Positions 56,697-63,206 of a DNA stretch of 64,000 nt are shown here, piece after piece; within the stretch, counting starts at the first letter, position 1; every line of letters begins with the position of its first letter. Under the pieces are notes generated by a model that was given only the letters and a program-made list of their open reading frames with translations, ran no database searches and had not been told where the DNA came from. A program made the translations under genes and the position numbers. The DNA lies in assembly GCA_025454875.1 (NCBI GenBank), contig JALONP010000016.1, positions 1 to 64,000 on the forward strand, in the 5' to 3' direction. This DNA comes from Bacteroidia bacterium (lineage in GTDB: Bacteria; Bacteroidota; Bacteroidia; UKL13-3).

Positions 56697-58502
56697 TTAG
56701 TTATCGTTTCCTTTTTCCAACTGTGCTTTTAAAGCTGCTAATCCTTCAACGTCAGCAAAAGTTGATTTCTCTTGTGATTCGTTTGATTTTTTAACTGCTT
56801 TGGCTGTTTTCTCTTTTTCGTCAGCTTTGGTTTTTTCGTCAGTTACTTTTTTTACTTCGTTATCCGCTTTCCAAACAGATGTATGTGACACCACAATACG
56901 TTTGTTCTCTTTGTTAAACTCAGTTACTTTAAACTCAATTACTTCGTCTTCTTTAGCAGTTTTCTTGTCTTCTTTAGCTAACTGTTTAATTGGGGCATAT
57001 CCTTCTACACCATAAGGCAATGCAATGGTTGCGCTCTTCTCATCTACCTTCATTACGGTACCTGAGTGAACTGAACCTACTGTAAAGATGGTTTCAAATG
57101 TATCCCAAGGATTTTCATCTAACTGCTTATGGCCAAGGCTCAATCTGCGGTTTTCCAAATCCATTTCCAATACCACTACATCTAATTCTTGGTCTTTTTT
57201 CACAAACTCGTTTGGATGCTTAATTTTCTTAGTCCAGCTTAAATCTGAAACGTGAACCAATCCATCAACACCTTCTTCAAGCTCTACAAATAAGCCATAG
57301 TTTGTCATGTTGCGAACAATACCTTTATGCTTAGAACCTACTGGGTATTTAGTAGCGATATCAGCCCATGGATCAGCTTTTAATTGCTTAATACCAAGCG
57401 ACATTTTGCGTTCTTCTTTATCTAAGGTTAATACCACAGCTTCCATTTCGTCTCCCAATTTCATGAAGTCAGATGGGTTGCGTAAATGTTGGCTCCAGCT
57501 CATTTCCGATACGTGTATTAATCCTTCAACACCAGGAGCAATTTCTAAGAATGCACCGTAATCAGCTATGTTCACAATTTTACCAGTAACTTTAGCACCT
57601 ACTTCAAGATTGGTGTTTAAGCTATCCCAAGGATGTGAGCTCAATTGTTTTAAGCCTAATGAAATACGTTTTTTCTCATCATCAAAATCAAGTACTACTA
57701 CGTTGATTTTCTCATCCATCTTCAATACTTCTTCTGGATGGTTGATACGACCCCAAGAAATATCAGTAATGTGAAGCAATCCGTCAACACCTCCTAAGTC
57801 GATGAACACACCAAACGAAGTCATGTTTTTAACAGTTCCTTCCAATACTTGTCCTTTTTCAAGACGTGAAAGGATATCAGATTTTTGAGCTTCAATATCC
57901 TCTTCAATTAATACTTTATGAGATATAACTACATTTTTAAATTGGTGATTTACCTTAACCACTTTAAATGGCATGGTTTGTCCCACGTATACATCGTAGT
58001 CTTTAATTGGTTTGGTGTCAATTTGTGAACCTGGTAAGAATGTGTCAATACCAAATACATCTACTACCAAGCCTCCTTTAGTGCGGGTTTTAACATAACC
58101 GTTCACAATTTCATCATTCTCTTGTGCTTTGATAATGTTTTCCCATGCACGCTCTCCAACAGCCTTTTTGCGCGAAAGCACAAGTTGGCCATTAGCATCT
58201 TCTTTGTTTTCAAGTAACACTTCCACTACATCTCCTACCTTTAGGTCTGGAGTATCGCGGAACTCAGTACGTTGGATTAATCCATCTGATTTGAATCCGA
58301 TGTTTAATACCACTTCTTTTTCGGTAAAACCTACTACGGTACCTCTTACGATTTCTTTTTCGGCAATGGTGCTCAGGGTTTGTTCGTACAATCCTTCAAG
58401 TTTAGCTTGCTCATCTTTTGAATAGCGGCTAAAGCCTTCCTTGTCCATGTTCCAGTCAAAGTCAGCTGCTGGTGCTGTTAAGTTGTTGTTTGTTTGTGTC
58501 AA
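56697..58502 (-). CDS. rpsA: 30S ribosomal protein S1
   Basis: A 601-residue protein with six S1 RNA-binding repeats, visible as recurring blocks such as GVFIDLGGVDGLLHITDISWG, GAFLEIAPGVEGLIHVSEMSW and GLFVELEEGVDGLVHVSDLSW. The C-terminus is charged. The start is TTG 58502, read as MTQTNNN; it is preceded by AGGAG at 10 bases, one of few Shine-Dalgarno-like sites in this window, and gives the natural S1 N-terminus (APAADFDWN). The next ATG (58448) would remove this. It recruits mRNA to the ribosome. A promoter lies about 30 bases upstream. Confidence 0.92.
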   Translation of the reverse strand: MTQTNNNLTAPAADFDWNMDKEGFSRYSKDEQAKLEGLYEQTLSTIAEKEIVRGTVVGFTEKEVVLNIGFKSDGLIQRTEFRDTPDLKVGDVVEVLLENKEDANGQLVLSRKKAVGERAWENIIKAQENDEIVNGYVKTRTKGGLVVDVFGIDTFLPGSQIDTKPIKDYDVYVGQTMPFKVVKVNHQFKNVVISHKVLIEEDIEAQKSDILSRLEKGQVLEGTVKNMTSFGVFIDLGGVDGLLHITDISWGRINHPEEVLKMDEKINVVVLDFDDEKKRISLGLKQLSSHPWDSLNTNLEVGAKVTGKIVNIADYGAFLEIAPGVEGLIHVSEMSWSQHLRNPSDFMKLGDEMEAVVLTLDKEERKMSLGIKQLKADPWADIATKYPVGSKHKGIVRNMTNYGLFVELEEGVDGLVHVSDLSWTKKIKHPNEFVKKDQELDVVVLEMDLENRRLSLGHKQLDENPWDTFETIFTVGSVHSGTVMKVDEKSATIALPYGVEGYAPIKQLAKEDKKTAKEDEVIEFKVTEFNKENKRIVVSHTSVWKADNEVKKVTDEKTKADEKEKTAKAVKKSNESQEKSTFADVEGLAALKAQLEKGNDN

Positions 58503-58535
58503 AATATAAATTCTCCTTTCGCTTAAAAAAGCGGG

Positions 58536-58564
58536 CAAACATATGCAAAATATGTGAATTACAA
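58536..58564 (-). promoter_or_regulatory. Promoter for rpsA (TTG-N18-TATGTTTG)
   Basis: On the minus strand, TATGTTTG (58536-58543) matches the -7 consensus, with TTG 18 bases upstream (58562-58564). The leader is about 28 bases and contains the AGGAG before the TTG start. Confidence 0.5.
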
Positions 58565-58601: not shown

Positions 58602-60338
58602 TTAAAAGGGAGTGTAAACAAACTGATCTTTTTCCCAACTGACAATGCCTGCCGTATCCCAAGGAATTTGCTCCATTTTTAAACCATATCCCTTAATATA
58701 AGCATCTGGATAGTCATACATGCGTTCGAGTATGGTAAATCGGAATTCATATGGCACTAATTTCTTTTTAAAAGCCCAAAACAAGATTACCCTTTTGAGT
58801 CCATCAGGCTGTATTTTGTTTTGATTGATGATGTAATAAAGCATGGGTTTTGTCCATTCGCCTTTATTGTTTAAATCACTTTGAACGTAACCATTTGGCT
58901 TAACCAAAGGAAGCCAGCCTTTTTGCCCTGTTGGTAAATGTGTATAGGTTATCGCAACGGTTTTCCGTTTAGCAACCAATGCTTTATCTAGGAAAACACC
59001 CCTGGAGTCGATACCTAATAACCAACGTGCCAAGCTTGATGGGCTTACTATTTTTGATGATTGACGGGGTTCCTCATTGCCGTAAGCAGTAGGATTTTGG
59101 ATACCCTTAATATGACTGTAAAAATGATTGGCATTTACGATTAACTGGGTTGCAGTAAAAAATAACAATACACCAATCCCTAATTGGGTTCGGTAGTTCG
59201 ATTGATGTTGTTCAGTGTTTTGCTGAAATAAAGGTCTTGTCCAGCCTAACCATTTTAACAAGTCCAGTATACCTTCCGCTGCACCTGATTGTAAAAATAA
59301 GGCTATAGGATACCCAACCATATACTGTTTAAGCAGCATAATTGCACTTTCAGGTCTTTCCAGCAATATTTGCGCGTCTTCTTGTTGTGTTGTAAGCAAC
59401 CATTTGTTCCGAATGTCAATGGCTTTTAAAAAGTGCCAACACCTTTTTGCTAGAGGCTTTTCAGGCACCCATATTTGGTATTGTTGTTTTGCAGCAAGCA
59501 GTTGTTTAACCTTTATCCAAAATGAGTCAGGAATGAAAAAAACATAAAAAACCAGTGTTCCAATTGCCGTTTTAGGTAAAAAAAAGAATAATCCTATAGA
59601 AATGTGAAAAACAATTCCCAATATGATGGTAACTGTGCGTGTTGGTTTAAAATAAATGAGTGGTAAAAACAAAATCTCCCACCCAATTACCAAATAATTT
59701 AAGGGCTTTAACAACCAAAATGCATCTGCAAATGCATTTGGAATCATGTTCCATTTAAGGTACGGCATATTTAACGGCAACCACAATCCAAGTCCATTTT
59801 GCCATAAGGGTGCGTAACTTTTTGTTAAACCCGATCCGAGGTACATTAACCCAATTGTACTAATAATGCTAAAGGTATATGCAAATTGTGAAGTATGGCG
59901 AGGGGGTAAGCAACCGTTGCGAATTACATTGATTCGAGCATCAATAGACAAGGTTCTAGAAACTGGCAAAAAAATGCTTAGCAAACTACCCATTCGCAAT
60001 AAATCATCGAAGTATGAACTCACACCACTTCTAAAATAAAGTTGAGCAGCCATTACCACGCAAAAGTAGTTAACAATCGAAGCAATTTTGGTCTTAAATC
60101 CTATCAAGCAATGGCTTGCACTTATAAACCAAATCACTAAAAAGCTATTAAATGGGAATGGATTTTTACTGAAACCTGGAATAGAATCAAATAACAACGC
60201 CTTGTACACATGCGTGTAGTAAATCATTAACAGAACATGCGAAAAAAACAAAACCCTAAAAAGGGCAAAGTTCACGGAGCTTCTTGGCCGTTCATGTAGC
60301 ATTATTGTTTTGTTAAGCCAACTTAAAAAGGTATTCAT
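58602..60338 (-). CDS. HTTM-domain membrane protein (vitamin K-dependent carboxylase-like fold)
   Basis: A 578-residue inner-membrane protein of the HTTM family, which is related to vitamin K-dependent gamma-carboxylase. The first 300 residues hold about ten hydrophobic helices, including the typical YLGSGLTKSYAPLWQNG segment and a GIVFHISIGLF helix. The C-terminal 270 residues are more polar and unassigned. Its function in bacteria is unknown. The start overlaps the stop of the preceding small membrane protein gene by four bases, so it is part of the exosortase unit and may modify or handle the sorted protein. Confidence 0.75.
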   Translation of the reverse strand: MNTFLSWLNKTIMLHERPRSSVNFALFRVLFFSHVLLMIYYTHVYKALLFDSIPGFSKNPFPFNSFLVIWFISASHCLIGFKTKIASIVNYFCVVMAAQLYFRSGVSSYFDDLLRMGSLLSIFLPVSRTLSIDARINVIRNGCLPPRHTSQFAYTFSIISTIGLMYLGSGLTKSYAPLWQNGLGLWLPLNMPYLKWNMIPNAFADAFWLLKPLNYLVIGWEILFLPLIYFKPTRTVTIILGIVFHISIGLFFFLPKTAIGTLVFYVFFIPDSFWIKVKQLLAAKQQYQIWVPEKPLAKRCWHFLKAIDIRNKWLLTTQQEDAQILLERPESAIMLLKQYMVGYPIALFLQSGAAEGILDLLKWLGWTRPLFQQNTEQHQSNYRTQLGIGVLLFFTATQLIVNANHFYSHIKGIQNPTAYGNEEPRQSSKIVSPSSLARWLLGIDSRGVFLDKALVAKRKTVAITYTHLPTGQKGWLPLVKPNGYVQSDLNNKGEWTKPMLYYIINQNKIQPDGLKRVILFWAFKKKLVPYEFRFTILERMYDYPDAYIKGYGLKMEQIPWDTAGIVSWEKDQFVYTPF

Positions 60339-60769
60339 TCTTTTTGCGGTAGTAAGGTAAATGCGGCAAACAAAAACAGGAAAACAAATGGTGAATGAAA
60401 ATAACGATTCACCTTAGGTAAGATATGCACATTTAGCATGGGATGTTGAGCCCATACAATTGCATATTCGATTACATAAATAACAGCCAATAAATACAAT
60501 GTAAACATTGCCAATTGTTTGTTATACCAAATATAAATTAGTGAAGCAGGGATAACGATAAACAAAAGACTAAACAAATGGGCTTTCACCCAAAAGAGTG
60601 TATGTGTCTGATATAATTCAAAGATGGTTCGATAATCGGGATTTGCTGGATTAAGCATAAAAGCAGGAGGAGTATTCAAGTAATCAGGCGTGATAGCGTC
60701 TTTGAACAGACTGCAAGCCAGTAAAACCAGAAACAATATGATTCCAAGAGTTTTAGTTTTTAGATTCAT
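60335..60769 (-). CDS. Exosortase-associated membrane protein, 144 aa
   Basis: A small four-helix membrane protein (hydrophobic stretches at about residues 8-23, 60-82, 88-108 and 125-140) of the type found directly beside XrtF/XrtX-like exosortases in Bacteroidota. A conserved-looking NRYFHSPF precedes the last helix. It has no signal peptidase or protease motif. Both ends overlap their neighbours by four bases, which strongly suggests coupled translation and a joint function. The family label relies on position and general resemblance. Confidence 0.65.
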   Translation of the reverse strand: MNLKTKTLGIILFLVLLACSLFKDAITPDYLNTPPAFMLNPANPDYRTIFELYQTHTLFWVKAHLFSLLFIVIPASLIYIWYNKQLAMFTLYLLAVIYVIEYAIVWAQHPMLNVHILPKVNRYFHSPFVFLFLFAAFTLLPQKE

Positions 60770-61287
60770 ACTTTACTCAGTTTGTTGGCCCATAACATCC
60801 ACAAGTAAAACACAAATCCGTAAATTAAAAAGAGCAATATATACCTGTGGAACAAATCATAATATGGATAACGGTAATATGCCATTAAAGTAAGTATGTA
60901 TGATCTGATTACATTTAGTATAAAAATAGCAAGTGTGCCTCCAATTAAAAATGGAATTTTATATTTCCACTTGCCAGGATAGGCAATCGTAAAAAATAAA
61001 AACAAGGCAAATAGTTCAGTCCCATTACATGATGCACCTACTCTTACAACTTGTCTTTTGAACGGTTCGATAAAAACATAAGCATCACCATCAAATGCTG
61101 CCGAAGTGTAATATGAAATATAGCCCGTGTGATTTAAAAAGAAGCAAATCCCTTCGCTTACCCATGCTGTTAAATATTTATCTGGTACAGCAACGGGTTT
61201 TAAATAAAATTCATAAGTTCCAAACCAAATTCCTCCTAGTAATCCAAGGATAGCTAAAAAACGTATAAGTTGATTGGTCGGTCTCAT
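60766..61287 (-). CDS. Exosortase (XrtF/XrtX-like transpeptidase)
   Basis: A 173-residue integral membrane cysteine protease/transpeptidase. It has about five to six helices, and the exosortase catalytic residues are present: Cys87 (GASCNGTE), Arg128 (NVIRSY) and His147 (DLFHRY). Exosortases recognise a C-terminal sorting tail of short motif, helix and basic end, cut it, and probably attach the protein to a surface glycan. The size fits the short Bacteroidota XrtF/XrtX kind and not the long EpsH kind. The upstream 59-residue gene encodes a matching substrate tail. A terminator-like hairpin abuts its ATG. Confidence 0.85.
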   Translation of the reverse strand: MRPTNQLIRFLAILGLLGGIWFGTYEFYLKPVAVPDKYLTAWVSEGICFFLNHTGYISYYTSAAFDGDAYVFIEPFKRQVVRVGASCNGTELFALFLFFTIAYPGKWKYKIPFLIGGTLAIFILNVIRSYILTLMAYYRYPYYDLFHRYILLFLIYGFVFYLWMLWANKLSKV

Positions 61288-61319
61288 AAAAAAAGGAAGC
61301 AGTTGCCACCACTTCCTTT
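61288..61319 (-). terminator. Hairpin with T run directly before the exosortase start codon
   Basis: Arms AAAGGAAG and CTTCCTTT (61292-61299 with 61312-61319), followed on the minus strand by seven T (61288-61294, partly stem). The run ends at the exosortase ATG (61287). It should stop most transcripts of the small substrate gene. Confidence 0.65.
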
Positions 61320-61327
61320 CAAATATA
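61320..61327 (-). promoter_or_regulatory. Candidate -7 element for the exosortase gene
   Basis: TATATTTG on the minus strand is a perfect -7 match between the small gene's stop and the hairpin. No TTG stands 19-21 bases upstream. If used, transcription would start inside the hairpin and avoid its terminator effect. Confidence 0.35.
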
Positions 61328-61349
61328 GGATATGCCTAAAAGGAATAAT

Positions 61350-61529
61350 TTATTTTTTTTTGTACAATTTTTTAATGCCGTAACCCACACCAGCTGCTAA
61401 AAGTAAGCCAATGCCACTATCAACAGGTAGTTCGGGGTCAGAGTCAATAAAGTCACCTGGAGGGTCTTGTGCAAAGACACCAACAGTCATGAACAAGGAA
61501 AGTAAGGCAAAAAGTATAAGCTTTCTCAT
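61350..61529 (-). CDS. Tiny exported protein with PID-CTERM-like sorting tail, 59 aa
   Basis: A 59-residue protein. It has a signal peptide (MRKLILFALL.., cleavage after VFAQ, residue 21), then a short acidic linker (DPPGDFIDSDPELP), then a sorting-like tail: PVDSG motif, a hydrophobic helix (IGLLLAAGVGYGI) and a basic end (KKLYKKK). This is the three-part layout of exosortase substrates, close to the PID-CTERM type of Bacteroidota. The mature part is only about 15 residues, so the protein seems to be little more than a sorting signal. It lies upstream of the exosortase gene, with a promoter candidate at 61551-61580. Confidence 0.8.
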   Translation of the reverse strand: MRKLILFALLSLFMTVGVFAQDPPGDFIDSDPELPVDSGIGLLLAAGVGYGIKKLYKKK

Positions 61530-61635: not shown

Positions 61636-62562
61636 TTAAATTGGTCTATATCCCTTTAAAAAATCGCTTACGAACATACGCTTTTTACCTTCTAATTGAA
61701 TTTCCTTGAGGTAAACAACGCCATCGGAACAGTAATAACCAAGCTGGTTTTTATAATCAGTAGTTATATCACCTGCCTTATTTTCGTGATGTTTGGGAGA
61801 AAATGAGCAATCAAATATTTTGATTATTTTATTGTTAAGTTTTGAAATTGCTCCAGGGTATGGTGACAATCCAAGAATTTGTTGTCTGATAACTGTACCT
61901 GATTTTTCCCAATCAATTTGGCAGGTGCTTGTGGAAATCTTTGGGGCAATTTTTGTTGAAAAAGAAGCTTGAGGAGTAGGAGAGATAGAAGTTTCAATTA
62001 CTCCTGATACGGTTTGAACAACAATACGAGCTCCCAAATCCATCAAAACATCATGTAATTCTCCTGCGGTCATTCCATCCTTAATTGCTACCCTTTCTTG
62101 CAACAATAAATCGCCTCTATCAATTTCATGCTTTAATTTAAACGTGCTTACCCCAGACTCTTTTTCTCCATTCATTATAACCCAATTAATTGGGGCAGCA
62201 CCTCTATAATCAGGCAATAATGATGCATGCAAATTAATGGTACCAAGAGTTGGCATATTCCAAACAACTTCAGGTAACATTCGAAAAGCGATAACTACTT
62301 GCAAGTCTGCTTCAAAGGATTTTAGCTCATGCAGAAATGATTCATTTTTTAAATTAGTTGGTTGCAATACTGGTATATTGTTAGCGACTGCATATTGTTT
62401 TACAGCAGAAGCTTGTAATTGCAATCCTCTCCCTGCAGGCTTATCTGGCGCTGTAACAACAGCAACAATATGGTACCCTGCTTTTAACAATGCATCTAGC
62501 GAGGCTACTGCAAAAGTAGGTGTTCCTAAAAAAACGATTCTTGGTTTATTCAATCTTTCCAT
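61636..62562 (-). CDS. fmt: Methionyl-tRNA formyltransferase
   Basis: A 308-residue enzyme that formylates initiator Met-tRNA using 10-formyltetrahydrofolate. The N-terminal Rossmann-like domain has FLGTPTFAVASL, the INLHASLLPDYRGAAPINW active-site region and the KLKHEIDRGDLL helix; the C-terminal OB-fold domain has LSPYPGAI. ATG 62562 (MERLNKPRIVFLG) is the family N-terminus and overlaps the end of ccmB by 13 bases; the longer start at 62592 adds ten unrelated residues. Confidence 0.95.
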   Translation of the reverse strand: MERLNKPRIVFLGTPTFAVASLDALLKAGYHIVAVVTAPDKPAGRGLQLQASAVKQYAVANNIPVLQPTNLKNESFLHELKSFEADLQVVIAFRMLPEVVWNMPTLGTINLHASLLPDYRGAAPINWVIMNGEKESGVSTFKLKHEIDRGDLLLQERVAIKDGMTAGELHDVLMDLGARIVVQTVSGVIETSISPTPQASFSTKIAPKISTSTCQIDWEKSGTVIRQQILGLSPYPGAISKLNNKIIKIFDCSFSPKHHENKAGDITTDYKNQLGYYCSDGVVYLKEIQLEGKKRMFVSDFLKGYRPI

Positions 62563-63206
62563 AAATAGGGAAACAGCACATAACTTAAACAAATCACAAT
62601 GAACCCAAATGCAAAAATTGCCAATGCATCGGGCAGTATGAGTGATGGATCTAAGCCATCCACAGCTTTTTTAGAGGCTTTTACAATCATCAACAATAAG
62701 GGAATAACTACAGGAAACCCTAATACTGGCATTAACAGTGAGCCATTTCCACTTTTAGAAGCAATTGACGAGATAAAGGTAAAACACCCTGAAATACCTA
62801 TTCCTGCAAGCGCAATGATACTTGCAAAATAACTGAAACTAGATGCCATATTGCCTAAAAGCATTGCATACACTACGGTTGTAATTGCAGAAATAATCCA
62901 TATAAACAAGGTATTAAATGCTACTTTTGAAAGAATAATCCATTCTGGTGGGCTTATTGAATAATAGTACAATTGTCTTCCTTTTGTATCTCCAATAAAT
63001 CCTTTAGCTGCTGCTGTGCTTCCAGAGAACAGCAGAATAATCCAAAATAATGCATTCCAAGCTGCGGGATTAAGCATCTTTGCGGCTGCATATGCAATGA
63101 ATACAGAAGAAATGGATTGCAATACAATTCCATTAAAAGCATAGCGCGTTCTCCATTCTATTTGTATATCTTTTTTAAGCAGTATCCAAAAGGGATGAGC
63201 TTTCAT
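62550..63206 (-). CDS. ccmB: Heme exporter membrane subunit CcmB
   Basis: A 218-residue six-helix membrane protein of the CcmB family, part of the ABC-type apparatus for cytochrome c maturation. The N-terminus LLKKDIQIEWRTRYAFNG and the FSGSTAAAKGFIGDT loop are typical. CcmA, CcmC and other system I genes are not in this window; they may be beyond it or elsewhere. Mature c-type cytochromes, such as those of the act and peroxidase operons here, would depend on it. It overlaps the DUF1343 gene by four bases. Confidence 0.9.
   Translation of the reverse strand: MKAHPFWILLKKDIQIEWRTRYAFNGIVLQSISSVFIAYAAAKMLNPAAWNALFWIILLFSGSTAAAKGFIGDTKGRQLYYYSISPPEWIILSKVAFNTLFIWIISAITTVVYAMLLGNMASSFSYFASIIALAGIGISGCFTFISSIASKSGNGSLLMPVLGFPVVIPLLLMIVKASKKAVDGLDPSLILPDALAIFAFGFIVICLSYVLFPYLWKD

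Follow-up and report, generated by a model that had tools for sequence, protein, structure and literature searches.

The locus examined here encodes a protein of 59 residues that consists of little more than an export signal and a sorting tail, and the question raised was what an exosortase encoded beside such a protein could be placing on the cell surface. The mini-protein is specified by one of four minus-strand genes located between fmt (61636-62592) and rpsA (56697-58538) in the window, which is the whole 64,000-nucleotide stretch of contig JALONP010000016.1, from a freshwater member of the Bacteroidota, that was analysed. The original prediction had placed a mini-protein gene, an exosortase gene, an associated-protein gene and an HTTM gene here, the last three overlapping, and the positions of all four genes were confirmed, the assignment of the fourth to HTTM being probable; the successive overlaps were exactly 4 nt each. 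The mini-protein gene (61350-61529) encodes MRKLILFALLSLFMTVGVFA, a Sec signal, then the mature QDPPGDFIDSDPELPVD and then SGIGLLLAAGVGYGIKKLYKKK, which has a PVD-SG motif, a helix and a basic tail. Cleavage of the 20-aa signal peptide (61470-61529) is predicted at A|Q by the Bacteroidetes Q-rule (PMC5837995, PMC10653852), and the mature peptide of 17 residues (61419-61469) is followed by the C-terminal sorting tail (61353-61418). Residues 34 to 58 matched the PID-CTERM model NF046080 with 43.9 bits (cut-off, 26). The predicted signal-linker-tail architecture was upheld, although the linker comprises 17 residues when the PVD is counted rather than the 15 that had been claimed. The near absence of a mature domain, which had been considered unusual, proved to be normal throughout the PID-CTERM family.

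The exosortase (173 aa; 60766-61287, minus strand) had its best match in the Exosortase X (XrtX) model NF046081, at 125.3 bits and under the curated cut-off of 170. It exceeded the cut-offs of the family signature TIGR04178 (49.7 bits against 23) and of PF09721 (26.9 bits against 25.7) and, at 78.7 bits, was under the curated cut-off of 90 for the XrtF model TIGR04128. The residues Cys87, Arg128 and His147, which had been recognized at the outset, were invariant among the 24 exosortases aligned. In a maximum-likelihood tree, the enzyme was on the XrtX side of the split between XrtX and XrtF-like sequences (support, 100/99), in a clade of eight members (support, 100/98) that includes one above-cut-off XrtX. 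These results allow the unit to be identified with high confidence as a divergent XrtX exosortase with a PID-CTERM protein. The suggestion of an exosortase with a neighbouring signal-plus-tail substrate was thus borne out by matches to both families, and action of the enzyme on this substrate is predicted from their sequences. Homologues of the 59-aa protein were also present beside XrtX in most XrtX genomes, so that the absence which would have spoken against the original prediction was not observed.

In order to examine conservation of the four-gene unit, 84,980 species genomes were scanned with close exosortases as the query. The scan yielded 11 loci, one of them in Bacteroidetes bacterium UKL13-3. 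The order of exosortase, associated protein and HTTM recurs in nine other genome loci, with a PID gene in front in eight of the nine, and wherever the contig was long enough the unit sits between genes of the sizes of fmt and rpsA, as judged by length and position. XrtX loci from beyond the window's own family had no full-length HTTM protein in the corresponding place. The proposal that HTTM is a partner of the system therefore holds for the XrtX clade of this family, where it is a recurrent fourth gene, but not for XrtX systems generally. The order fmt, PID, XrtX, associated protein, HTTM, rpsA is conserved among relatives and represents a known kind of unit with a lineage-specific fourth gene. 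The 144-aa associated membrane protein (60335-60769, minus strand) is conserved beside XrtX in 17 loci, and its profile is similar to that of the small proteins encoded after XrtF-like exosortase genes (hhalign E value of 4e-6; probability, 87%).

Two sequence elements were detected around the mini-protein gene, both on the minus strand. A 13-bp hairpin with a T-run (61291-61320; fold, -18.6 kcal/mol; z, -2.6), which follows the PID gene and immediately precedes the start codon of the exosortase, resembles a terminator or attenuator, and a promoter-like TTTG-N19-TACTTTCG close to the Bacteroidota consensus was found by eye before the PID gene (61581-61551). Together these elements, which are known from the window, suggest that the substrate is made in excess over the enzyme. 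A comparable hairpin was not found in the corresponding gaps of five relatives tested, and a terminator before the exosortase was hence rejected as a conserved feature.

The function of the mini-protein was approached through the neighbours of its homologues. In the loci fetched there were 42 PID homologues, and directly upstream of 25 of their genes, on the same strand, was a gene for a large protein with a shared core of approximately 490 aa; the gap between the two genes ranged from -79 to 181 nt. Domain scans of five core proteins detected a type A sorting domain of the type IX secretion system (T9SS) in all five, with scores over the NCBIfam cut-off in four and a sub-threshold match in the fifth, the cut-off of the C-terminal domain (CTD) model not being reached for L072. 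The core itself had no Pfam or NCBIfam name. Its profile matched the C-terminal regions of Flavobacterium johnsoniae RemA (8gl6; E value of 4.5e-26) and RemZ (8gl8; E value of 8e-25); RemA serves as an adhesin in gliding, and RemZ is homologous to it (PMC10994853). The partner genes, which lie outside the window, combine a homologous core with a type A CTD and were classed as RemA/RemZ-type on both counts. A genome search detected a core match within 1.8 kb upstream of 30/61 PID genes in relatives and 37/62 in a phylum-wide sample, while approximately 0.1 per sample would be expected by chance according to our own estimate, which assumes a few core genes per genome of ~3.5 Mb. As far as we searched, the direct placement of PID-CTERM mini-genes behind RemA/RemZ-type T9SS genes is new: the name PID-CTERM was not found in the literature searched, and the RemA-type link is absent from the model names and papers searched.

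The association extended to gene content. Among 58 relatives, 39 had both exosortase and core, one had the exosortase only, five had the core only (three of these genomes being under 90% complete) and 13 had neither. The genomes are not independent, and the count at genus level (25/1/1/10; Fisher test, 3e-7) is the more cautious figure. In 118 Bacteroidota genomes sampled phylum-wide, with the core counted at E values below 1e-20, the corresponding numbers were 33/5/5/75 (Fisher test, 1e-18), and all 24 PID genomes of this sample had both exosortase and core. The T9SS itself does not drive this pattern, as the model of its sortase PorU was matched in 58/58 relatives, 57 of them over the cut-off. 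The pairing has exceptions. One genome (G007) has PID and core proteins and no detected exosortase, and about half of the relatives' PID genes lack an immediately preceding core gene, with some of these PID genes lying at contig ends. The window mini-gene adjoins fmt and not an adhesin gene, as do those of other HTTM-type loci, and its own genome encodes nine core proteins and only two PID proteins; just one of the two PID genes shares a run with a core gene. Overall, these data make it probable that the mini-protein/exosortase system functionally partners RemA-type adhesins.

The search for further proteins with this tail in the genome, as the original prediction advised, produced the second PID-CTERM copy (G000:C36). 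It is encoded by the last gene of a same-strand run (locus L121, 6872-13970) that begins with a core T9SS protein of >1400 aa and continues with proteins of 98, 137, 417 and 198 aa; the 198-aa protein appeared cupin-like by eye. The mature peptides of the two copies are identical in 17/17 residues, while only 5/20 residues of the signal peptide and 8/17 codons are shared. Pairs alike in conservation of the mature peptide were also present in genomes G006, G011 and G016. Across the family, mean identity of the mature peptide was 86% within genomes versus 45% between genomes; the signal peptide and tail are likewise closer within genomes, and it is the single pairs that carry the argument for constraint. 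Since the residues of paralogues are identical and their signal peptides have diverged, the mature peptide is under strong constraint with a drifting leader, and the differing codons speak against recent gene conversion as the source of the identity. The mature peptide of 14 to 19 residues is therefore the product and not a vestige. Nearly all PID mature peptides start with Gln, in agreement with the Bacteroidetes Q-rule (PMC5837995, PMC10653852), and hence they are likely, judging from their sequences, to carry a pyroglutamate cap. A separate observation was that some genomes (L105-L107, L109 and L110) have several near-identical PID mini-genes, every one of which follows a separate large adhesin gene.

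Gene families, synteny, adjacency, co-occurrence and peptide conservation were computed, and the following mechanism is proposed on this basis. The PID-CTERM mini-protein would be exported by Sec, and signal peptidase would expose its N-terminal Gln. XrtX would then cut the tail at the PVD-SG site and join the 17-residue peptide to a carrier, with the 144-aa associated protein as a putative helper of the exosortase and HTTM as a presumed lineage-specific accessory. RemA/RemZ-type T9SS adhesins would be the partners of the peptide, which would most likely aid their surface hold or assembly. A chaperone specific to one adhesin is a poorer fit than a shared anchor or subunit, given that different adhesins of a genome come with the same peptide. 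On balance, we favour this explanation as a whole, an XrtX unit with a dedicated PID-CTERM substrate whose peptide supports RemA-type adhesins; the specific role in retention or assembly of adhesins at the cell surface is put forward tentatively.

Other readings of the same data were considered. The exosortase could free the mature peptide as a diffusible, pheromone-like signal that tunes adhesin or biofilm genes, with identical copies serving one receptor. Genes that yield the same mature peptide from differing leaders, peptides that differ in other genomes even within a genus, the probable pyroglutamate cap and the likely co-transcription with adhesins would all suit such a signal. However, the activity assumed for exosortases is conjugation of their substrates and not release, no receptor gene is linked, and in another family (f42) the peptide hardly varies among many species, so that we consider a signal unlikely. 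The adjacency to RemA-type genes could also reflect shared expression of separate surface factors that have no physical or functional contact. This would explain why the peptide is independent of adhesin sequence within a genome, different adhesins being accompanied by the same peptide, but not why the neighbours are one type of T9SS protein or why the co-occurrence extends to genomes in which the genes are apart; we judge it improbable. The idea that the mini-protein is not a product at all, but a regulator or decoy of the exosortase held in the inner membrane, suits the data less well. The protein is very short and its gene adjoins the exosortase in many genomes, yet many copies sit far from the exosortase, behind adhesin genes, and the exported stretch is strictly conserved, which makes such a role very unlikely.

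A further possibility concerned the probable HTTM protein (578 aa; 58602-60338, minus strand), a membrane protein with a C-terminal soluble part. The window protein itself had no Pfam match; homologues with 28 to 40% identity matched HTTM PF05090 (best E value, 7e-9). A search of PDB sequences with the HTTM profile gave no match. The 14 best PDB fold matches of an AF2 model were all to the vitamin K-dependent gamma-carboxylase (GGCX), in a model of low confidence (pLDDT, 53.9) that was too poor to serve as a guide to mechanism and was dropped. Gamma-carboxylation of the acidic mini-protein by HTTM before the exosortase joins it, which the GGCX-like family and the operon shared with the substrate might evoke, was dismissed as highly improbable, because the substrates of HTTM genomes have no conserved Glu and the mature peptides of G001, G010 and G021 have no Glu at all. 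One speculation is that HTTM acts as a modifier of the carrier or of an associated lipid. Exosortases encoded at XrtF-like loci within the window's own family (L087, L089, L092-L095, L098 and L099) are accompanied by a membrane protein of 129 to 152 aa and a multi-helix membrane protein of 556 to 610 aa, which occupies the position of HTTM and appeared glycosyltransferase-like by eye.

If the pairing of mini-proteins with RemA-type adhesins is general, exosortase genomes without PID-CTERM matches should have other mini-proteins behind their core genes. Mini-proteins were found in this position in PID-CTERM-negative genomes at loci L216 (78 aa, with QPAPIDEHVPILFIAGIATIILHAKRKK) and L220 (63 aa). 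Homologues of the L216 mini-protein were detected in 15/60 genomes of its family, itself included, and 16 of the 17 matches follow an ORF with a T9SS-like tail, 14 of these ORFs matching the core. An above-cut-off XrtF is encoded in all 15 genomes; XrtF is nearly universal in this family (32/35 genomes), so that the co-occurrence weighs little and the position behind the core constitutes the evidence. None of seven L216-type mini-proteins scanned reached an NCBIfam cut-off, and three matched PID-CTERM weakly. In the g41 genomes (G077, G081, G122 and G138) the prediction was not borne out, as the core genes examined had no mini-protein behind them. PFE-CTERM, considered as an alternative substrate family, gave no match in 118 genomes, and the controls gave none either. 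The mini-protein family that scores below the NCBIfam PID-CTERM cut-off and sits behind RemA-type genes in XrtF genomes is that of loci L228-L244. From their position, the mini-proteins behind RemA-type genes in XrtF genomes are candidate XrtF substrates.

Deletions of xrtF and of Fjoh_1449 in F. johnsoniae gave the same phenotypes as deletions of porU and porZ, with poor colonization, much reduced biofilm and abolished zorbs, and the authors of that screen left the exosortase substrates to future work (PMC10936215). It is conceivable, though we would not yet call it probable, that XrtX and XrtF constitute a branch of surface display spanning the phylum: the peptide of a mini-protein encoded beside RemA-type T9SS adhesins would be joined to a carrier by the exosortase and would be indispensable to these adhesins as a co-anchor or subunit. 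If true, this would supply a substrate for XrtF and explain the likeness of xrtF mutants to T9SS attachment mutants. Furthermore, a candidate substrate family behind RemA-type adhesins makes the purpose of Bacteroidota exosortases testable, and the pairing connects the exosortase and the T9SS, two sorting systems that act on one surface.

Among known systems, the window unit is closest to Exosortase X/PID-CTERM (NF046081 and NF046080), with which it shares an above-cut-off tail, the best exosortase match and the gene neighbours; it differs in an exosortase below the curated cut-off (125 versus 170 bits) and in HTTM as the fourth gene. PEP-CTERM/EpsH has in common a short motif, a helix, a basic end and an exosortase, whereas the substrates of PEP-CTERM systems are for the most part larger proteins linked with exopolysaccharide loci. 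The XrtF system of F. johnsoniae (Fjoh_1448/1449; TIGR04128) likewise comprises an exosortase and a small membrane associate, and XrtF genomes also carry RemA-type T9SS proteins, with mini-proteins behind them in one family. The tail of the XrtF-side mini-proteins differs, having PID followed by two to three residues and P, and is under the PID-CTERM cut-off, and the third gene of the own family's XrtF-like loci encodes a multi-helix membrane protein in contrast to the HTTM of the window unit. The T9SS sortase PorU attaches type A CTD cargo to the surface, and in F. johnsoniae its loss has the phenotype that is also seen on loss of xrtF; PorU acts on big cargo, whereas the exosortase would be expected to act on the mini-protein instead.
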